From assembly GCF_015277515.1 (NCBI RefSeq), contig NZ_CP063767.1:1116001-1180000 (forward strand): DNA of 64,000 bases, given 5' to 3'. Shown in pieces: positions 13,525 through 22,472 of the stretch. Under the pieces are notes generated by a model. The model was not told where the DNA came from. It saw only the letters and a program-made list of their open reading frames with translations, and did not search any database. Position 1 is the first letter of the stretch; each line of letters starts with the position of its first letter. The stretch is from Thermophilibacter immobilis (GTDB taxonomy: Bacteria > Actinomycetota > Coriobacteriia > Coriobacteriales > Atopobiaceae). The position numbers and the translations under genes were made by a program.

Positions 13525-13570
13525 TTCCATCACGTCGCCTGCCACGAAAGTGGCAGGCGACGTGATGGAA
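13525..13570 (+). promoter_or_regulatory. Perfect 20-bp hairpin in the leader of the PTS operon
   Basis: Arms 13525-13544 and 13551-13570 are perfectly complementary with a 6-base loop (CGAAAG). It ends about 35 bases before the AAGGAGG of the regulator gene. It could be an attenuator or operator; a T-rich stretch follows at some distance, so simple termination is less certain. Confidence 0.55.
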
Positions 13571-13613
13571 TGCTTCTTGTCGACTTTTTACTATGCAAAA
13601 CCAAGGAGGAAAG

Positions 13614-15518
13614 ATGCGAACCATCGAGCTCATACAAACACTGCTTGATGACGAGGGTGATTCCCTTGAGACGCTCATGGAACGTTTCAAAGTGAGTACC
13701 CGTACAGTGCGCTCGCATGTCCATGCGGCAAACCAAATGCTTGAAGATATCGCTCTCATTCAGTTCTCGAGAAAAAACAATGTATATGAACTCGAGGTCC
13801 TTAATAAAGATGCATTTCAAACTTGGCTTGATCGGGGCAATAAAGTCGAACAGGAGCAGGCTGGTTCGGTCAGACGCGTGCCCCGTATCCTCAATTACCT
13901 TCTACTTACCGATGGCTGGGTGCGAGTTCCCGATTTGGCCGATCGCCTCTTCGTTTCGTCCCAAAGCATCTCTGTGGACTTGCATGAGGTTGAAGCTGAA
14001 CTCTCTAAGTTTGAGCTTTCGCTTGTAAAGCGTCCGTGGTACGGGATTCGTGTCGAGGGACCAGAAATCAACAGACGCACATGTCTTGCTTCGGTAATCT
14101 CAGCCTCTCTCGTTGGTGGCACCGGAAATACTGAGGCGCTATCCAATCGTGCCAAGACAATAGGGAAGACAGTCGAGCGGGTACTCGGTGAGAATAACTT
14201 TTCTATTAGCTCTATTGCATTTCAGAATCTTGTGGTGCACCTCGTGGTTGCAGCCGAGCGAATAGAGCAGGGTTGCTATGTTCCCATGGATGTCGAGCAG
14301 AGGGAACGCCTGATGGCACTGCCGGAAAGCATTACTGCCCAACAACTTGCGCAGGCCATCGGGAATGATCTTGGGATTTACCTCCCAAGCTCGGAGGTTG
14401 CTTTCATTACTATTCACCTTGCGGGGAAGCATTCTATCGATGCCCTTTCCCAAGAGGTCGATACAGATGGGACCGTAATCAGCGGTAGCGTCTGGGATAT
14501 CGTTGGCGAAATCCTTGATGCTGCTCGTCTTGCTATGTGGATAGACCTTAGAAGCGATCTTGAGCTGCGAATGAACCTTGCTCGTCACATCGTGCCACTC
14601 TCAGTGCGGCTTCGATATGGAATGCCTGCAAAGAACCCATTACTCGAAGAGACAAAGCTGCGCTATCCGCTTGCATGGACAATGGCGCTCGAGGCGGGGA
14701 AAGTGCTTGAGCGCCACTATGGTGCCATGCCCAATGAGGATGAGACTGGCTTTCTCGCCCTGTCATTTGCTCTTTCGCTAGAACGCCGGCGAACGCCGGC
14801 TCGCAAGATGCGGGTACTAGTGGTGTGTGCCTCTGGCATGGGAAGTGCGCGTTTGCTTCGGCAGCGGTTTATCTCGGAGTTTGGCGAACTGCTTGAGCGG
14901 TGCGATACATGCGATGCTGCGAGCGTAGTAGGAAAAGATTTTTCCGATGTCGATTACGTCTTCTCTACGGTCCCGCTGCCTAATCTCCCAGTGCCAGTTT
15001 GCCAGATTAGTTATTTCTTTGACAGAGATGCTGGGGACTACATACGTCGCATCTTGGAGAGGGCGGATGCGAGAGATGCTGCATCCATGTTTTCCCGTGA
15101 ACTGTTCTTTCCTCACGTGAAAGCAAAGGATAAGAGCTCGCTGCTGGATATGATGTGCTCTGAAATGGCAAAAGCGGGAGTCGCTCAGTCTCAGCTTCGC
15201 GATTCCGTAGAACTCCGCGAGGATGCTGCGGCGACTTGTTTCGGAAACAACGTTGCCATGCCACACCCCATGGAACCCATGAGCAATGAGACTCGTGTTG
15301 CGGTTGCGCTGCTCGATAATCCGATGTCCTGGGATGAATGGGGGCATTACGTTCAGGCTGTCTTCCTGGTCTCATATGCCCATGGAGCTCGAGATGGCGA
15401 TGAGGTTTTCTCGTTGCTTGCGGATTTGTTCACAGATGAGAGGTCTATTTCAAATCTTATCGATGAGCAGACCTTTGAGTGCCTGCTCAAGGAATTTGGG
15501 AATGGGAGCCAGAAATGA
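13614..15518 (+). CDS. PRD-containing PTS operon regulator (LicR/MtlR type)
   Basis: The product has 634 residues: N-terminal winged HTH (about 1-60), two PTS regulation domains (about 165-385), an EIIB-like domain with phospho-acceptor Cys in VVCASGMGSARLL (about 400), and a C-terminal mannitol-type EIIA domain with His in AMPHPM. Such regulators sense sugar flux through phosphorylation by PTS proteins and activate the adjacent operon. PRD1 keeps both histidines (VVHLVV, TIHLAGKH). PRD2 keeps the first (ARHIVPL), but its second site reads LALSFA, without His. The start at 13614 has AAGGAGG five bases upstream. The stop overlaps the EIIA gene (ATGA). Confidence 0.9.
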   Translation: MRTIELIQTLLDDEGDSLETLMERFKVSTRTVRSHVHAANQMLEDIALIQFSRKNNVYELEVLNKDAFQTWLDRGNKVEQEQAGSVRRVPRILNYLLLTDGWVRVPDLADRLFVSSQSISVDLHEVEAELSKFELSLVKRPWYGIRVEGPEINRRTCLASVISASLVGGTGNTEALSNRAKTIGKTVERVLGENNFSISSIAFQNLVVHLVVAAERIEQGCYVPMDVEQRERLMALPESITAQQLAQAIGNDLGIYLPSSEVAFITIHLAGKHSIDALSQEVDTDGTVISGSVWDIVGEILDAARLAMWIDLRSDLELRMNLARHIVPLSVRLRYGMPAKNPLLEETKLRYPLAWTMALEAGKVLERHYGAMPNEDETGFLALSFALSLERRRTPARKMRVLVVCASGMGSARLLRQRFISEFGELLERCDTCDAASVVGKDFSDVDYVFSTVPLPNLPVPVCQISYFFDRDAGDYIRRILERADARDAASMFSRELFFPHVKAKDKSSLLDMMCSEMAKAGVAQSQLRDSVELREDAAATCFGNNVAMPHPMEPMSNETRVAVALLDNPMSWDEWGHYVQAVFLVSYAHGARDGDEVFSLLADLFTDERSISNLIDEQTFECLLKEFGNGSQK

Positions 15519-15871
15519 GCGATGAGGAGCGCAAGGCTATGGATAACGAGATGCAGAATATCTCGCTGGGAATTATTGCCTCTTCAGGTCAAGCTCGCAG
15601 CCTAGCTTTTCAGGCACTCGCCAAGGCACGCGGTGGGCATATCGATGAGGCGCATGCCCTACTGGAAGAGTCAAAACGGGCTGCTCTGAAGGCCCATGAA
15701 TGTCAAACGCATTTACTTACCCGTGAAGCGTCTGGGGAGCACATCGAAATCGACGTATTGCTTGTGCATGCGCAAGATCACCTTATGACCTCAATGCTTG
15801 CACAAGAACTTATTGAAGAGCTGATTATTCTTCACGAGACAAAGGCTGATAGGAGGGAGGAGGACATTTGA
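15515..15871 (+). CDS. PTS EIIA, lactose/cellobiose family
   Basis: The 118-residue cytoplasmic helical protein belongs to the Lac/Cel EIIA family. Its phosphorylated histidine lies in the VHAQDHLM motif, and ISLGIIASSGQARSLAFQAL is the typical first helix. It accepts phosphate from HPr and passes it to the EIIB encoded next. The ATG overlaps the regulator stop, so translation is coupled. A Glu/Arg-rich tail ends the protein. Confidence 0.92.
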   Translation: MSDEERKAMDNEMQNISLGIIASSGQARSLAFQALAKARGGHIDEAHALLEESKRAALKAHECQTHLLTREASGEHIEIDVLLVHAQDHLMTSMLAQELIEELIILHETKADRREEDI

Positions 15872-15923: not shown

Positions 15924-16232
15924 ATGAAAGTTCTACTGGTTTGTGCGGGTGGAATGTCTACGAGCATCGTAATGAAGAAGATGCGGGACTATGCAAAAAC
16001 GAACGGAATTAACGACTTTGAAGTCAAGGCGACTGGTGTCGGGAACTTCCGTGATGTTGTCGATGCATATGATGTAGTTCTGCTTGGGCCGCAAATATCC
16101 TACAGACTTGATGAGATCTCCGGCGTAGCGGGCAAATCGAAGCCAGTTGGCGTAATTGCGCCCGCTGACTACGCAATCGGAAACTGCCAGGCAATTTTCC
16201 AGCAGATCGAAGGAATGCTTTCTGGTAAGTAA
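15924..16232 (+). CDS. PTS EIIB, lactose/cellobiose family
   Basis: The 102-residue protein has the phospho-cysteine in the N-terminal P-loop-like motif LLVCAGGMSTS (Cys7), characteristic of cellobiose/chitobiose EIIB. It relays phosphate from EIIA to the sugar bound by EIIC. GGAGGGA precedes ATG 15924; an upstream in-frame start at 15882 lacks a ribosome site. It lies between the EIIA and EIIC genes with short spacers. Confidence 0.93.
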   Translation: MKVLLVCAGGMSTSIVMKKMRDYAKTNGINDFEVKATGVGNFRDVVDAYDVVLLGPQISYRLDEISGVAGKSKPVGVIAPADYAIGNCQAIFQQIEGMLSGK

Positions 16233-16279: not shown

Positions 16280-17572
16280 ATGGCCAATGCACAGGATAGG
16301 CTCATGAAGGTGCTAATGCCCGTCACCACTTGGGTGGAGAAGCGCAAACACCTCCAGGCAGTCAAGGATGGAATGATTGGGGCGACTGCCTTTATCATCG
16401 TGGGGTCGATGTGCCTCATTCCAATGGCACTTATGAATCTAATCGGTTCTGGATCGGTGTATGATTTTTTAAGTGTCATAAATCCTTTTTTTACTAAAAT
16501 TGCAGGATTTACAAACGATTATGTAGGCCTATATGCTGCATATCTTATTGCGCGGTCGCTTGCAAAGCGAGATGAGATTGATGGTCCCATCATCGGCATT
16601 AACGCCGTCGTTGTTCAGTTGATTCTCACGGGTTTTGCCCTTGATGGAGTTGACGGTGCTGTTGCAACGACATACTTTGGTTCTCAGGGTCTGTTCGTCA
16701 GCATCATCTCTGGACTTCTCACAGTTGATATTACTCAGCTCTTTATTAAACGAGGCTGGGTTATCAAACTCCCCGAGAGTGTTCCCGAAATGGTGGCCGA
16801 TAGTTTTAGCGCATTGATTCCTGTTGCCGCGACTTGTGGAATTGCATCGCTCATTACGGTTATTTCTCAAGCTGGTGCGGGAGAGGTATTTCCTGCGCTG
16901 CTTCAGACGATACTTGCGCCTGCAGTTACATCAATGGATACGCTTCCTGCTCTCCTCATAGTAATATTCCTTACACAGCTTCTTTGGTTCTTTGGGTTGC
17001 ATGGGCCTTCGATTACCCAGGCGGTTTGGGCGCCATTTGCAATTGCATACGCGACTGAAAACGTTGCGGCATACGCTGCCGGAGAAGCAGCTACTCACGT
17101 GTTCACTTATGGCTTTTACTACAACATCCTGCAGGTAACAGGCTCTGGTCTTACTTTGGGGCTCGTCATTTTCATGATGCTCTCGAAGTGCGACACCTAC
17201 AAGGCTGTTGGACGCGCGGCCATTGTACCCTCTCTGTTTGGGATTAACGAGCCGGTTATTTTTGGACTTCCTATCATGCTCAACCCATTCATGTTTGTAC
17301 CGTTCGTTATCGGTCCACTTATTCCTACTACCATCGCTTGGTTTGCCTTTAAGAGCGGACTGGTGGGAATGCCAGTTGCAGTACCTCCCGGCTTCATGCC
17401 TCCCGGTGTCGGAGCATTCCTCATGACCTACGACTGGAAAGCGGTCGTGCTTGTATTCGTGCTTCTCGGAATTATGGCTGCGTTTTACTACCCATTTTTC
17501 AAGGCGATGGAGCGCGAGGCTCTTGCACGTGAGGAGCAGCAAGAAGTGGTGGCGGACGAAGCTACGGTTTAA
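16280..17572 (+). CDS. PTS EIIC, lactose/cellobiose family permease
   Basis: The 430-residue membrane protein has about ten hydrophobic segments and the family signature FGINEPVIFGLPIMLNP, near the sugar-binding site. With the separate EIIA and EIIB genes upstream it forms a complete three-part PTS that phosphorylates a disaccharide during uptake. AAGGAAAC precedes the ATG. The substrate is probably a glucoside; the companion GH4 type raises the possibility of an alpha-linked one. Confidence 0.92.
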   Translation: MANAQDRLMKVLMPVTTWVEKRKHLQAVKDGMIGATAFIIVGSMCLIPMALMNLIGSGSVYDFLSVINPFFTKIAGFTNDYVGLYAAYLIARSLAKRDEIDGPIIGINAVVVQLILTGFALDGVDGAVATTYFGSQGLFVSIISGLLTVDITQLFIKRGWVIKLPESVPEMVADSFSALIPVAATCGIASLITVISQAGAGEVFPALLQTILAPAVTSMDTLPALLIVIFLTQLLWFFGLHGPSITQAVWAPFAIAYATENVAAYAAGEAATHVFTYGFYYNILQVTGSGLTLGLVIFMMLSKCDTYKAVGRAAIVPSLFGINEPVIFGLPIMLNPFMFVPFVIGPLIPTTIAWFAFKSGLVGMPVAVPPGFMPPGVGAFLMTYDWKAVVLVFVLLGIMAAFYYPFFKAMEREALAREEQQEVVADEATV

Positions 17573-17594: not shown

Positions 17595-18941
<1,347 letters not shown>

Positions 18942-18955
18942 CCTATTAGTCTCTG

Positions 18956-18985
18956 GCACCTTGCGGGCGTTGCTCTGCAAGGTGC
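18956..18985 (+). terminator. Intercistronic hairpin in the sugar operon
   Basis: Arms GCACCTTGC and GCAAGGTGC flank a 12-base loop between the GH4 gene and the next gene, followed by TCTTACTATT. It may reduce read-through or protect the upstream mRNA. Confidence 0.45.
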
Positions 18986-19006
18986 TCTTACTATTCGGAG
19001 GTACAA

Positions 19007-19615
19007 ATGGAAGAGAATTATTCGATATGGGAACACGCATATACAAACCATGGTATAGAAGTCGATGAGGCAGTCTCCGCATTGCAAAAGTGCATCCGAC
19101 GAGCCCGCGAAGAAGATGCGGCTCGATTTGCATACGAATTGTACACGACAAGCCCAGCTCTGCTTGAAAAGGTCTGGAGCCGTCTAGAGTCTATCTCTGT
19201 GGAGGACATTGGATTCGGAAATCTCAATGCAGCGGTTTATGTGCATACGCTTAACGAGATGCGCAAGAACTATCCCTATGATGATCCTGACCAGCCGATG
19301 TTTTTCGTTCACGCGATTCGTATCCTATGCCGAAGCGAAAAGGACCGTTCGAGTGATTTTCTGAAGAACATAATTATTAAAACCGCTGCAATGGGACAGG
19401 TGCCCGAGGTTCCCGATATCGCGCTCGACAAGCATACGCGTCGCGGCCGTGAGCTAGGCCGGGGATCCCGCGAATTCTATGATGAAGGATGCTTGGTCTT
19501 CCCCCAGGCAGAAGTTGACAATGATTACCGCGCTAGGTATGGCAAGGTTCTTGAGGAGTATTCTCCCGAAAAGGCAGAGCCGAGCGCCTTCAAGTTTATT
19601 GCTGGTCGCTTCTAG
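19007..19615 (+). CDS. Stand-alone MgsA/RarA C-terminal-domain-like protein
   Basis: The 202-residue soluble protein resembles the C-terminal part of the replication-recombination ATPase RarA/MgsA (AAA_assoc_2 and MgsA_C region). It shows REEDAARFAYEL, then LESISVEDIGFGNLNA, FFVHAIRILCRSEKD, and a KHTRRGRELGRG segment where RarA has its late HxxAKRLG-like motif. The AAA+ ATPase module (Walker A, Walker B, arginine finger) is missing, and its start has GGAGG, so it is not a fragment of a longer gene. It sits inside a PTS/GH4 operon, so a sugar-linked role is suggested; the function is unknown. Confidence 0.65.
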   Translation: MEENYSIWEHAYTNHGIEVDEAVSALQKCIRRAREEDAARFAYELYTTSPALLEKVWSRLESISVEDIGFGNLNAAVYVHTLNEMRKNYPYDDPDQPMFFVHAIRILCRSEKDRSSDFLKNIIIKTAAMGQVPEVPDIALDKHTRRGRELGRGSREFYDEGCLVFPQAEVDNDYRARYGKVLEEYSPEKAEPSAFKFIAGRF

Positions 19616-19632: not shown

Positions 19633-21042
19633 GTGAGAGATAGTAGTGCGTACTCCGAGAGCTCCGCCTCTCGTGTACTCGATGCGAGAACGGTTGTATC
19701 AATAATCGCTTCGGGTAGTCTCGCCTTCTGTGCGATTGTGTTTGAGACTTCAACAAACGTTGCTATTCCGGTCATGATGTTGGAGCTAGGGGTTGATACG
19801 GCGACAATACAGTGGATTACATCCGCATACCTACTCGTTTTGTCGGTGACGATTCCCGTATTCCCTGTACTCAAGTCACGCTATTCCTTGCGTCGCCTTT
19901 TTGCCGCTTCAACGCTTTCCTTTACAGCAGGAACGCTGCTTTGCTGTACAGCGACTACATTCCCCCAGCTCCTGTTGGGCAGAATTATTCAGGGGCTGGG
20001 GACTGGTGTTGCGATGCCGCTTATGTTCAACGTTGTGATAGATCAAGTACCCTTTGAGCACATGGGCATGATGATGGGCGTTGCGTCGCTGATAATTTCG
20101 TTGGCACCGGCAATTGGGCCTGCTTATGGTGGAGTTGTGCTAGAAGCGTTTGGGTGGCATACGATGTTCTTGTTTGCTGTCCCCCTCCTTGCCGTGGCAT
20201 TCGCTGCAGGAATGGTCTGTTTACGACAGACAACGGAACTGGCTATACGCCCATTTGACGCGACGGGGTTCCTTCTTGTAGCCTCTGGTTTTCTTCTGAT
20301 TGTGGTGGGGGTGAATCGGCTCTCTAACGATGGGCTCACCGCTTTTGTTGCAGCTCTTCTAGTTGCCGGCCTCATTCTTCTTGTTCAATTTGTAAAACAC
20401 GTAAGACATGTAAAATATCCCTTAGTGTCTCCTGAAGTGTTTTCCTCAACTCGATTTATGACTTCAGTAGCTGCAATTGCGAGCGCGTCATTCGTATGCC
20501 TCGGATATGCATGGTTGATTCCCAACTTCATCCAGGTAGCTCTTGGTACGGGGGCAAAAGTTTCTGGCCTTGTAGTGGTTCCTGGGTGTGTAGCGGCAAT
20601 GCTACTCTCCCCGGTTGCTGGTCGACTTCTTGACAGAAAAGGACCATGCACTCCCATTGTCGCAGGTGCGACGCTGATGGTGTTGGGTGCTATTCTGATG
20701 TGCATCTACAGATTAGATACCGCCTGGGGATTGGTGGTGTGTTACCTGCTATCGGGAATGGGCCAAGGCCTGTTGGCTAGCCCCTCGATGACCTACGGTC
20801 TTTCTTCTCTTGACGATAGTCTGCGGGTTGATGGGACTTCAGTTTGTAACTCTCTTCAACAACTAGGTGGCTCGGTAGGGGTGAGCACTGTTACAGCGGT
20901 TGTGGCCGCTGCTCAATCTTCTAGTGCTGACATTACGACAGGAATGGTGCTAGGTGGACAAGCCGCCTTTGTCGTACTGGCAATCGTTGCTGCCGTTGCA
21001 GCCGCATTCTCGTTGACTGCTCTGCGGTTTGCTAAGTCCTGA
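19633..21042 (+). CDS. DHA2 (14-TM) family MFS exporter
   Basis: The 469-residue protein has about 14 hydrophobic segments. Features of the EmrB/QacA group are the FETSTNVAIP N-terminal helix, the LLGRIIQGLGTGVAMPLMFN region and APAIGPAYGG, matching motif C of drug:H+ antiporters. The GTG start at 19633 follows AGAAAGG closely after the previous stop, and it is the last gene of the sugar operon. It probably exports a toxic compound or a sugar derivative; its place in a carbohydrate operon is unusual. Confidence 0.82.
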   Translation: MRDSSAYSESSASRVLDARTVVSIIASGSLAFCAIVFETSTNVAIPVMMLELGVDTATIQWITSAYLLVLSVTIPVFPVLKSRYSLRRLFAASTLSFTAGTLLCCTATTFPQLLLGRIIQGLGTGVAMPLMFNVVIDQVPFEHMGMMMGVASLIISLAPAIGPAYGGVVLEAFGWHTMFLFAVPLLAVAFAAGMVCLRQTTELAIRPFDATGFLLVASGFLLIVVGVNRLSNDGLTAFVAALLVAGLILLVQFVKHVRHVKYPLVSPEVFSSTRFMTSVAAIASASFVCLGYAWLIPNFIQVALGTGAKVSGLVVVPGCVAAMLLSPVAGRLLDRKGPCTPIVAGATLMVLGAILMCIYRLDTAWGLVVCYLLSGMGQGLLASPSMTYGLSSLDDSLRVDGTSVCNSLQQLGGSVGVSTVTAVVAAAQSSSADITTGMVLGGQAAFVVLAIVAAVAAAFSLTALRFAKS

Positions 21043-21173: not shown

Positions 21174-22472
21174 CTATGCCGCCCTCCTCCTCGAGTCAAC
21201 GCCGTCCGCCTTCACCAGCCGGATGATGGCGGCGGCATGCTCGGCCGCGGTTCCCTCGTACGTCGGTGCCGGCGCTGGCGTACGCTGGGAGTCCTCCTCG
21301 TAGGCCTCCTGGATGGACCCTGCGGAGAACCAGCGTCTCGACTGCCAGGCCTCGTCCATCTCCGAGAGAGCGGCACCGACGTACCTGAGGAGGCTCCTCC
21401 TCGAGGGGAAGACCTGCACGACGCGGCTCCTGCGCTTGATCTCCCGGTTGGTGCGCTCCTGGATGTTGTTGGTCCTGAGCCTGATGTGGTGCTCGTAGGG
21501 GAAGTCGAGGTAGGCGAGCGCGTCAGCCTCGGTCTCCTCCAGGAGCTCGCCCGCCGCGGGGCAGATGGCGCCAACCTCGTCGATCGCCAGGTGGTAGAGC
21601 TCCCTGACGAGGTCCGGGTCACGCTCCGCGAACACGGCCGAGAGCACCTGCCCCACGAGGGCGCGCTGGCGCCTTGTCCTGGCGAGCGAGCAGCAGTTCC
21701 TCTCGAGGTGGACGATGCAGCGCTGCCAGGCGGCGCCCGGGAAGGTCTCCTCGATGGCACGCCTCAGCCCCTCGTGGGCGTCGGAGACGACGCAGATGAC
21801 GTCCGCCACGCCACGGTCGCGCAGGCCCCTCAGGAACCCGAGCCAGGACGCGTAGGACTCCGTGTCGACCGCGTCGACGCCGACGAGGTAGCGGTGGCCG
21901 TCATCGGCGGCCGCTATCGCCGTCACCACGGCCACGGAGCCGACGTGCCCGCCCTCCCGGGCCTTGATGTAGGTGGCGTCGAGCCACAGGTAGGGGAAAC
22001 GCAGGTCGCGGAAGACGCGCCCCTGCAGGTCTGCGACCGTCTCGTCGAGCGTGGCGCACATCCGGGAGACGGCATCCTTGCCGAGCCTGTCGGCACCGAG
22101 CGTGTGGGCCACGCGCTCGACCTTCCTCGTCGAGACCCCACAGGTGACCATCTCGGCCACGGCCGCCACGATCGCGCGGTCGGTCCTGGAGTATCGCTCC
22201 ACCAGGTCCTCGGGGAAGAAGGACCCGCGCCTGAGCTTGGGTATGCGGAGGGTGATCGTGCCGACGCTCGTGAGCAGCGAGCGCTCCCGGTAGCCGTTCC
22301 TCTGGTTGCCGCCCTCGCACTCGAGGTCGGCCTCGACGCTCATCACCTCGTTGACGACGGACTCGGCGAGCACCCTCGCCAGCTCGCCCACGTTCACCAT
22401 CCCGTCGTCGAACCGGGGCAGCCCCGGTGTCACACCGTCCTGCCCATCGCCTATGATTGCCATAGCGGTCAT
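21174..22472 (-). CDS. IS256-family (Mutator) transposase
   Basis: The 432-residue DDE transposase has NGYRERSLLTSVGTITLRIPKLR near the start in order with the IS256 N-terminal domain. The first catalytic Asp lies in YLWLDATY, the second in VVSDAHEGL, and the C-terminal segment reads NNIQERTNREIKRRSRV with the acidic residue. The conserved C/H pair is in WQRCIVHLERN. It is full length with no frameshift, so it may be active. Confidence 0.93.
   Translation of the reverse strand: MTAMAIIGDGQDGVTPGLPRFDDGMVNVGELARVLAESVVNEVMSVEADLECEGGNQRNGYRERSLLTSVGTITLRIPKLRRGSFFPEDLVERYSRTDRAIVAAVAEMVTCGVSTRKVERVAHTLGADRLGKDAVSRMCATLDETVADLQGRVFRDLRFPYLWLDATYIKAREGGHVGSVAVVTAIAAADDGHRYLVGVDAVDTESYASWLGFLRGLRDRGVADVICVVSDAHEGLRRAIEETFPGAAWQRCIVHLERNCCSLARTRRQRALVGQVLSAVFAERDPDLVRELYHLAIDEVGAICPAAGELLEETEADALAYLDFPYEHHIRLRTNNIQERTNREIKRRSRVVQVFPSRRSLLRYVGAALSEMDEAWQSRRWFSAGSIQEAYEEDSQRTPAPAPTYEGTAAEHAAAIIRLVKADGVDSRRRAA

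Follow-up and report, generated by a model that had tools for sequence, protein, structure and literature searches.

The window, by which we mean the whole stretch of DNA that was analysed (64 kb), encodes a lac-family PTS operon that includes a short gene of a different kind, referred to below as the orphan gene. The following genes and features were identified:

13593..15518, + strand: BglG-type PTS regulator, 641 aa, with a fructose-IIA-like C-terminal domain (NCBIfam matches under cut-offs)
15515..15871, + strand: lac/cellobiose-type PTS EIIA (TIGR00823, E 4.7e-31, under cut-off; start assigned at an ATGA overlap)
15924..16232, + strand: lac/cellobiose-type PTS EIIB (TIGR00853, E 2.9e-19, under cut-off; start assigned by us)
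16280..17572, + strand: lac-family PTS EIIC (TIGR00410, E 3.3e-86, above cut-off)
17598..18941, + strand: GH4 phospho-glycosidase (6dux, 1.1e-199; 1u8x, 1e-187)
18955..18986, + strand: 13-bp inverted repeat in the GH4-orphan interval (terminator/attenuator-like by consensus match only)
18997..19001, + strand: GGAGG ribosome-binding site, 5 nt upstream of the ATG (read directly)
19007..19615, + strand: orphan RarA/MgsA-C-type protein, 202 aa (profile matches, tree, predicted structure)
19633..21042, + strand: DHA2/EmrB-type MFS exporter (a neighbour in coriobacterial loci only)

The orphan gene at 19007-19615 is real and is under strong purifying selection. Compared with its nearest relative, in Tractidigestivibacter montrealensis (L001), it shows 88 silent and 8 replacement codon changes, and the second codon positions are identical throughout. 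The preliminary description of this DNA gave the gene a ribosome site of its own, which the GGAGG ahead of the ATG bears out, and placed it between a GH4 gene (65 bp upstream) and an exporter gene (17 bp downstream), which holds given the 6dux match and the EmrB-type assignment listed above. Inverted-repeat matches of the kind found in the GH4-orphan interval number 13 in 8 kb, against 7.8 expected.

In having EIIA, EIIB, EIIC, a BglG-type regulator and GH4, the operon resembles lac/cellobiose-family PTS operons with GH4, from which it differs in the additional orphan gene. The EIIC is the sole lacE-family match in the host genome, and the closest solved relatives of the GH4 protein are 6-phospho-alpha-glucosidases. 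The MFS exporter probably lies outside the conserved orphan unit. An exporter is clustered with the orphan in three of 80 loci (L002, L003 and the window), and by eye in L001 too. Just past the exporter gene is a 432-aa ORF (21174-22472, - strand) that we take, by eye, to be transposase-like. Just 5' of the regulator gene, positions 13526-13569 form a perfect inverted repeat, with arms of 20 bp and a loop of 4 bases, further copies of which were not found within the window.

Fold and relation to RarA

RarA (MgsA) is a widely conserved DNA-repair ATPase, and MgsA_C is its C-terminal domain. The window protein has the RarA C-terminal fold, is motor-less and is not RarA itself. Pfam alone leaves the match doubtful for the window protein, in which MgsA_C is found at E 0.011 (16.1 bits, under the 27-bit cut-off). 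The match is settled by profile and structure tests. Across the family, 12 of 17 members, the window among them, match MgsA_C at E up to 1 (best 5.1e-9). With phmmer, PDB entry 2r9g (the C-terminal fragment of Enterococcus faecium RarA) is matched at E 3.4e-7 over residues 20-187, and a profile-profile comparison of the orphan family with nine host RarAs gives a probability of 98.1 (E 8.6e-14, 133 columns). NCBIfam provides no family for the orphan protein up to E 1.

An AF2 model based on 46 sequences (14 cellular and 32 phage rows) has a pLDDT of 91.8 and a pTM of 0.79; an earlier model based on 17 cellular rows was poor (pLDDT 64), and it was with the phage rows that the higher value was obtained. 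When the model was searched against the PDB with Foldseek, the top 19 matches were all RarA/MgsA structures, and VIA-align superimposes it on 2r9g with Z 16.9 and an rmsd of 2.0 over 120 residues (model residues 9-132). Past residue ~132 the model is mostly a confident prediction that RarA structural alignments hardly cover. After the RarA entries, VIA-align lists chiefly collar domains of clamp loaders (Z 7-10), a range in which the score may reflect a common helical arrangement, and we base no claim on them. Identity with RarA C-domains in the structural alignments is 16-27%.

The RarA C-terminal match proposed in the preliminary description is thus confirmed, by structure prediction as well as by phmmer and profile comparison. 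Of the two profiles named there for a check, MgsA_C is supported by the family profile-profile comparison and by Pfam under its cut-off; for AAA_assoc_2 (PF16193), Pfam gave no match in the orphan protein up to E 1 in a search whose HMMER filters discard weak matches. The AAA+ motor is missing from the 202-residue protein, as had been described, with no Pfam AAA match in the ORF up to E 1.

A search with RarA motor sequence found no RarA motor elsewhere in the 64-kb window. Elsewhere in the host genome there is a single full-length rarA (G000:C1:1487714-1488181), and with the family profile a second, RarA-length gene (open frames of 422-486 aa) was identified in 9 of the 16 genomes that contain the first homologues. 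Run over the window, 79 loci with cellular orphans and 54 loci from viruses, the motor search places RarA immediately 5' of the orphan in a single cellular locus (L098) and gives a weak AAA match in another (L111). The homologues are therefore not regularly found beside a separate AAA+ gene, an arrangement that had been raised as a reason to doubt the original proposal: a RarA motor adjoins the orphan in only 1 of the 79 cellular loci. At L098 (5869-7809), a full-length rarA is followed after 36 bp by the orphan copy.

The likeness to the RarA/MgsA C-domain (PF12002; 2r9g, 3pvs, 3bge, 3ctd, 8g28) is one of fold, and S24, K28, R31, R59, E66, D67, G69 and K112 are common to both. Unlike RarA/MgsA, the orphan lacks the AAA+ motor and has residues of its own (R32, E44, W57 and the D-x-H-T motif), and its gene is set in a sugar operon.

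Motor-less relatives in phages

The cellular orphans belong to a motor-less family whose other members come mainly from bacterial viruses. In PHROGs, the window protein matches PHROG 16866 (unknown function) with an E of 6.5e-13, compared with only 0.011 for MgsA_C, and PHROG 33349 (named ATPase) at E 9.3e-12; the phage family is recorded in PHROGs yet unexplained there. The cellular orphan alignment gave no match when searched against viral contigs. The host RarA alignment gave 72 viral loci, mostly with matches to the C-terminal part only, and motor-less ORFs of about 185-322 aa were obtained from 54 of these (the label "phage" for these loci is based on the IMG/VR collection).

For the orphan tree, 156 rows were thinned at 90% identity to 104 (50 cellular, 38 phage, 15 RarA and one Bradyrhizobium plasmid row) and the tree was rooted at its midpoint; L001-L003 were added manually to the orphan alignments and trees. 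The cellular orphans form a single clade (100/99) nested among the motor-less phage proteins (89 orphan rows), and the 15 RarA rows form a separate clade (100/100, on a branch of 2.9) with all orphans outside it, in a tree with long branches that are flagged for possible false joining. We infer transfer from phage to cell, a direction that depends on rooting with RarA. An origin of the gene as a RarA truncated in the sugar operon by loss of its motor is ruled out by the tree and the PHROG matches.

The signature D-x-H-T-x-x-G is present in all 50 cellular rows and in 36 of the 38 phage rows, and in none of the 15 RarA rows. Residues R32, E44, W57, R114, D117, D141, H143, T144 and G147 are fixed or nearly so in cellular and phage orphans and mostly other in RarA, with the RarA alignment being uncertain around D-x-H-T (T144 is T in about half, and D141 is D in 40%, of the 15 RarA rows). 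Across 85 orphan sequences, 47 positions are conserved at 95% or more. The window protein therefore shares profile, tree position and signature with the motor-less phage proteins of PHROG 16866 and PHROG 33349. It differs from them in that the phage members often have a sliding-clamp-binding-like C-terminus and are often near TAGT (TET-associated glycosyltransferase) genes. The C-terminal motif occurs in 18 of the 38 phage rows, against a mean of 0.54 in shuffled tails, and in none of the 50 cellular or 15 RarA rows; the pattern is our own version of the known motif, and at 18 of 38 it is not defining for the phage family.

This tail, together with the RarA C-fold, would suit an accessory to replication or repair that works as RarA does and whose position in a sugar operon is incidental. 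In 3 of the 54 viral loci the orphan is immediately preceded by a separate AAA+ gene, which is also consistent with such a role, and these three mutually related loci (L213, L223 and L239) possibly represent a RarA split within one phage lineage. However, the clamp-like tail is absent from every cellular row, the host already has rarA, and the linkage to two EIIC clades described below spans orders and phyla. We consider this explanation unlikely.

Gene neighbourhoods were compared for 38 non-redundant viral loci with flanks of about 1.5 kb (among L208 and L211-L265). One recurrent gene cluster is near the phage orphan in 20 of these (19 upstream, 1 downstream), and 16 of its 20 proteins match TAGT (E up to 0.01), both being raw counts. 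According to one report, TAGT likely adds a second glucose onto glucosylated hydroxymethylcytosine in T6-like phages (PMC13390438). A second upstream cluster occurs in 8 viral loci, with ParB_N in both members tested. Downstream of the orphan, 14 loci have a gene of a third cluster, whose products are mostly some 120 aa long.

One phage protein is matched by 93 isolated-phage records, of which 56 are from Microbacterium phages and 5 from Arthrobacter phages; the other 32 are under other names (Bacteriophage sp., Listeria, Bacillus, Enterococcus, Acinetobacter, Salmonella). The annotation is AAA-ATPase in 38 of the 40 phage records listed. No AAA domain was found with Pfam in two translated phage orphans from Microbacterium/Arthrobacter phage records, where the label is AAA-ATPase or ATPase (206 and 239 aa), so the annotation is likely wrong for phage orphans, the two that were examined having no ATPase module. 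The orphan of Microbacterium phage Jayden has no MgsA_C match at E 0.01, yet carries D-x-H-T, and the gene upstream of it, recorded as a glycosyltransferase, has no Pfam match.

Plasmid pCC829_1 of Bradyrhizobium barranii (L137:6989-7543) encodes a 184-aa orphan that is 35.5% identical to the window protein; a ThsB-type TIR gene lies some 1 kb away, and in the tree this orphan groups with one viral row (L263). In BFVD, the orphan model is matched structurally by giant-virus proteins of Pithovirus, Pandoravirus and Cedratvirus, among them two from Heterosigma akashiwo virus that are labelled putative glycosyltransferase.

Coupling to lac-family EIIC

The stand-alone RarA-C-fold proteins of cells are most commonly encoded in an operon with a lac-family EIIC from one of two neighbouring clades. 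We surveyed 80 loci that were hand-chosen from homologue matches and are not a random sample; 77 of them yielded 82 orphan copies, the context counts leaving out L001-L003, where overlapping long ORFs in high-GC DNA masked the gene from the ORF caller. A PTS gene lies within 5 kb of the orphan in 61 of the 82 cellular copies. The adjacent co-directional gene is EIIC in 37 and EIIA in 15, together 52 copies. Genes within 5 kb also include GH4 (10 of 82), purine nucleoside phosphorylase (14, adjoining the orphan in 9) and an FAD-dependent protein (12). The preliminary description had suggested looking for a repeated association with PTS or GH4 genes. The survey finds one as far as the PTS is concerned, but the link is to the importer, mainly EIIC, and not to GH4 or the exporter.

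Two main layouts were identified. One, to which the window belongs, consists of a BglG-type regulator, EIIA, EIIB, EIIC and sometimes GH4. The other, in 32 of the 82 copies, has a divergent RpiR-type regulator that faces an orphan-EIIC pair, and is found on a Cetobacterium plasmid too. Ten of these 32 copies have a further co-directional gene within 100 bp and 22 have none, which in the latter leaves the orphan as the one candidate enzyme at the locus. In Enterococcus faecium DO plasmid 3 (L135:7971-11684), an IS110 element lies between the orphan and the EIIC gene.

No PTS gene is present within 5 kb of the remaining 21 cellular copies, six of which have an operon for a BMP-type nucleoside ABC importer nearby. 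A divergent orphan branch is found beside this importer (L090-L093, L095 and L096). Several of the BMP-type loci also have genes for nucleoside hydrolase, phosphorylase, deoxyribosyltransferase or ADP-ribosylglycohydrolase (families assigned with Pfam in L093 and extended to the others by clustering). In L100-L102, the orphan is flanked on one side by a sugar ABC importer and on the other by a type I phosphodiesterase (assigned with Pfam in L100).

Each of the 11 genomes examined contains between 1 and 24 lacE-family matches. The orphan loci provided 53 EIICs, of which two that are not adjacent partners and lie outside the linked clades (L098_14 and L125_2) were dropped along with three duplicate rows; the EIIC at L098, a locus among the 61 PTS-linked copies, falls outside these clades. 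The 51 linked EIICs form two pure neighbouring clades, an RpiR-type clade of 36 rows (100/99) and a BglG-type clade of 15 rows (99/98) that includes the window EIIC. All 67 unlinked lacE paralogues, from nine of the same genomes, are outside both, with some long-branched ones adjoining the linked clades in the tree. These results are from a FastTree of 120 rows and, for 73 rows, from both a FastTree and a careful tree, the latter with 22 of the 67 unlinked paralogues. A single clade of linked EIICs, seen initially with 30 high-scoring paralogues (99/95), split in two once 40 more, chosen by us from the middle of the list of lacE-family matches, were added.

The presence of the EIIC predicts the presence of the orphan in the 36-row RpiR-type clade, for which co-occurrence was run (the window clade being BglG-type). 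In the Lactobacillales, an RpiR-type EIIC (at least 58% identical) is found in 15 of 148 genomes, 14 of which have the orphan; in the Erysipelotrichales (at least 72%), it is found in 16 of 148 genomes, all 16 with the orphan. The exception is G853 (L177), which has the EIIC without an orphan and with no trace of one within the 4.3 kb examined; a 386-aa ORF lies upstream of its EIIC on the opposite strand. This coupling shows that the orphan and EIIC are partners.

The distribution of the orphan family is patchy. Within the window's family, 2 of 140 genomes have it at E 1e-3. At 1e-30 it is found in 3 of 396 genomes in the window's phylum and in 51 of 294 in the order of G151. At 1e-25 the counts are 33 of 295 genomes for the order of G154, 2 of 341 for the class of G150 and 1 of 199 for the order of G152. 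Such patchiness, the plasmid copies and the G853 EIIC that does without the gene are what would be expected of a hitch-hiker that moves along with a transferred PTS cassette but plays no part in it. The strong purifying selection and the retention of the gene with EIIC in two regulator contexts argue against this explanation, which we disfavour as scarcely credible.

Proposed role of the orphan protein

We tentatively propose, with confidence a little short of even, that a phage-related protein has been repurposed as a dedicated partner of lac-family EIIC, and that it probably binds or processes the imported sugar or glycoside phosphate. EIIC would import a phosphorylated sugar or glycoside, and the orphan protein would bind this product and probably also process it chemically. 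The polar residues of the orphan family (R32, E44, W57, R114, D117, D141, H143, T144 and G147) are the candidates for this action, and K28, R31, R59, E66, D67 and K112, which are shared with RarA, may act alongside them. In the window, the substrate would be an alpha-glucoside, given a GH4 protein whose sequence predicts a 6-phospho-alpha-glucosidase, and elsewhere the product may be handed on to a purine nucleoside phosphorylase. Since GH4 is near only 10 of the 82 copies, no single substrate is implied.

The density of fixed polar residues, with 47 positions involved, speaks for a protein that binds a ligand or catalyses a reaction more than for a mere scaffold. Taken together with the copies in which the orphan is the only local candidate enzyme, this conservation favours a binding or processing role. 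Several facts count against this reading: 21 of the 82 copies are PTS-free, the EIIC at L098 is outside the linked clades, G853 has no orphan, and 10 of the 32 RpiR-type copies have a further co-directional gene. No enzyme folds were found among the structural relatives, the clear ones being RarA C-domains, and we know of no RarA C-domain that is an enzyme.

Most of these observations would equally be explained by a regulator without catalytic activity, and an adaptor or sensor of this kind is the main rival, which we regard as possible though somewhat doubtful. The sensing or scaffolding linked to sugar phosphates that the preliminary description put forward may likewise apply. RarA C-domains form oligomers, and the orphan protein might do so too, binding its cognate EIIC or regulator and gating transport or expression by the level of sugar phosphate. 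Pairing in an operon with EIIC, often opposite a divergent RpiR/SIS regulator, the co-occurrence with EIIC and the RarA C-domain fold would all be accounted for. Less easily explained are the many polar residues that are very highly conserved, several of them in phages too, and the copies beside ABC importers and nucleoside genes that have no EIIC within 5 kb.

If the proposed partnership of binding or processing is correct, PTS operons of the linked EIIC clades contain a component for which no description was found. No account of a stand-alone MgsA_C protein, and none of RarA in PTS operons, was found in the titles and abstract openings of the open-licence literature, and no PTS operon with an orphan-type component has been described to our knowledge. 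The RarA C-domain exists on its own in a broad phage family and, in bacteria, regularly shares an operon with certain sugar importers, so that a new and unexpected function for this fold is suggested. The same role would make the orphan protein a way into the study of a group of DNA-glycosylation cassettes in phages.

The nucleoside importers near cellular copies and the DNA glycosylation genes near phage copies hint that the ligand may be a sugar-nucleoside or sugar-base. The family could then be a class of enzymes or binding proteins for sugar-decorated nucleosides, with a function in phage DNA glycosylation near TAGT and in salvage by gut bacteria, a reading that we consider very unlikely. 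A glycosylated nucleoside would enter by the lac-type PTS or by the BMP-type ABC importer, and would be split by GH4 (in the case of alpha-glucose-6-phosphate), purine nucleoside phosphorylase, nucleoside hydrolase or deoxyribosyltransferase.
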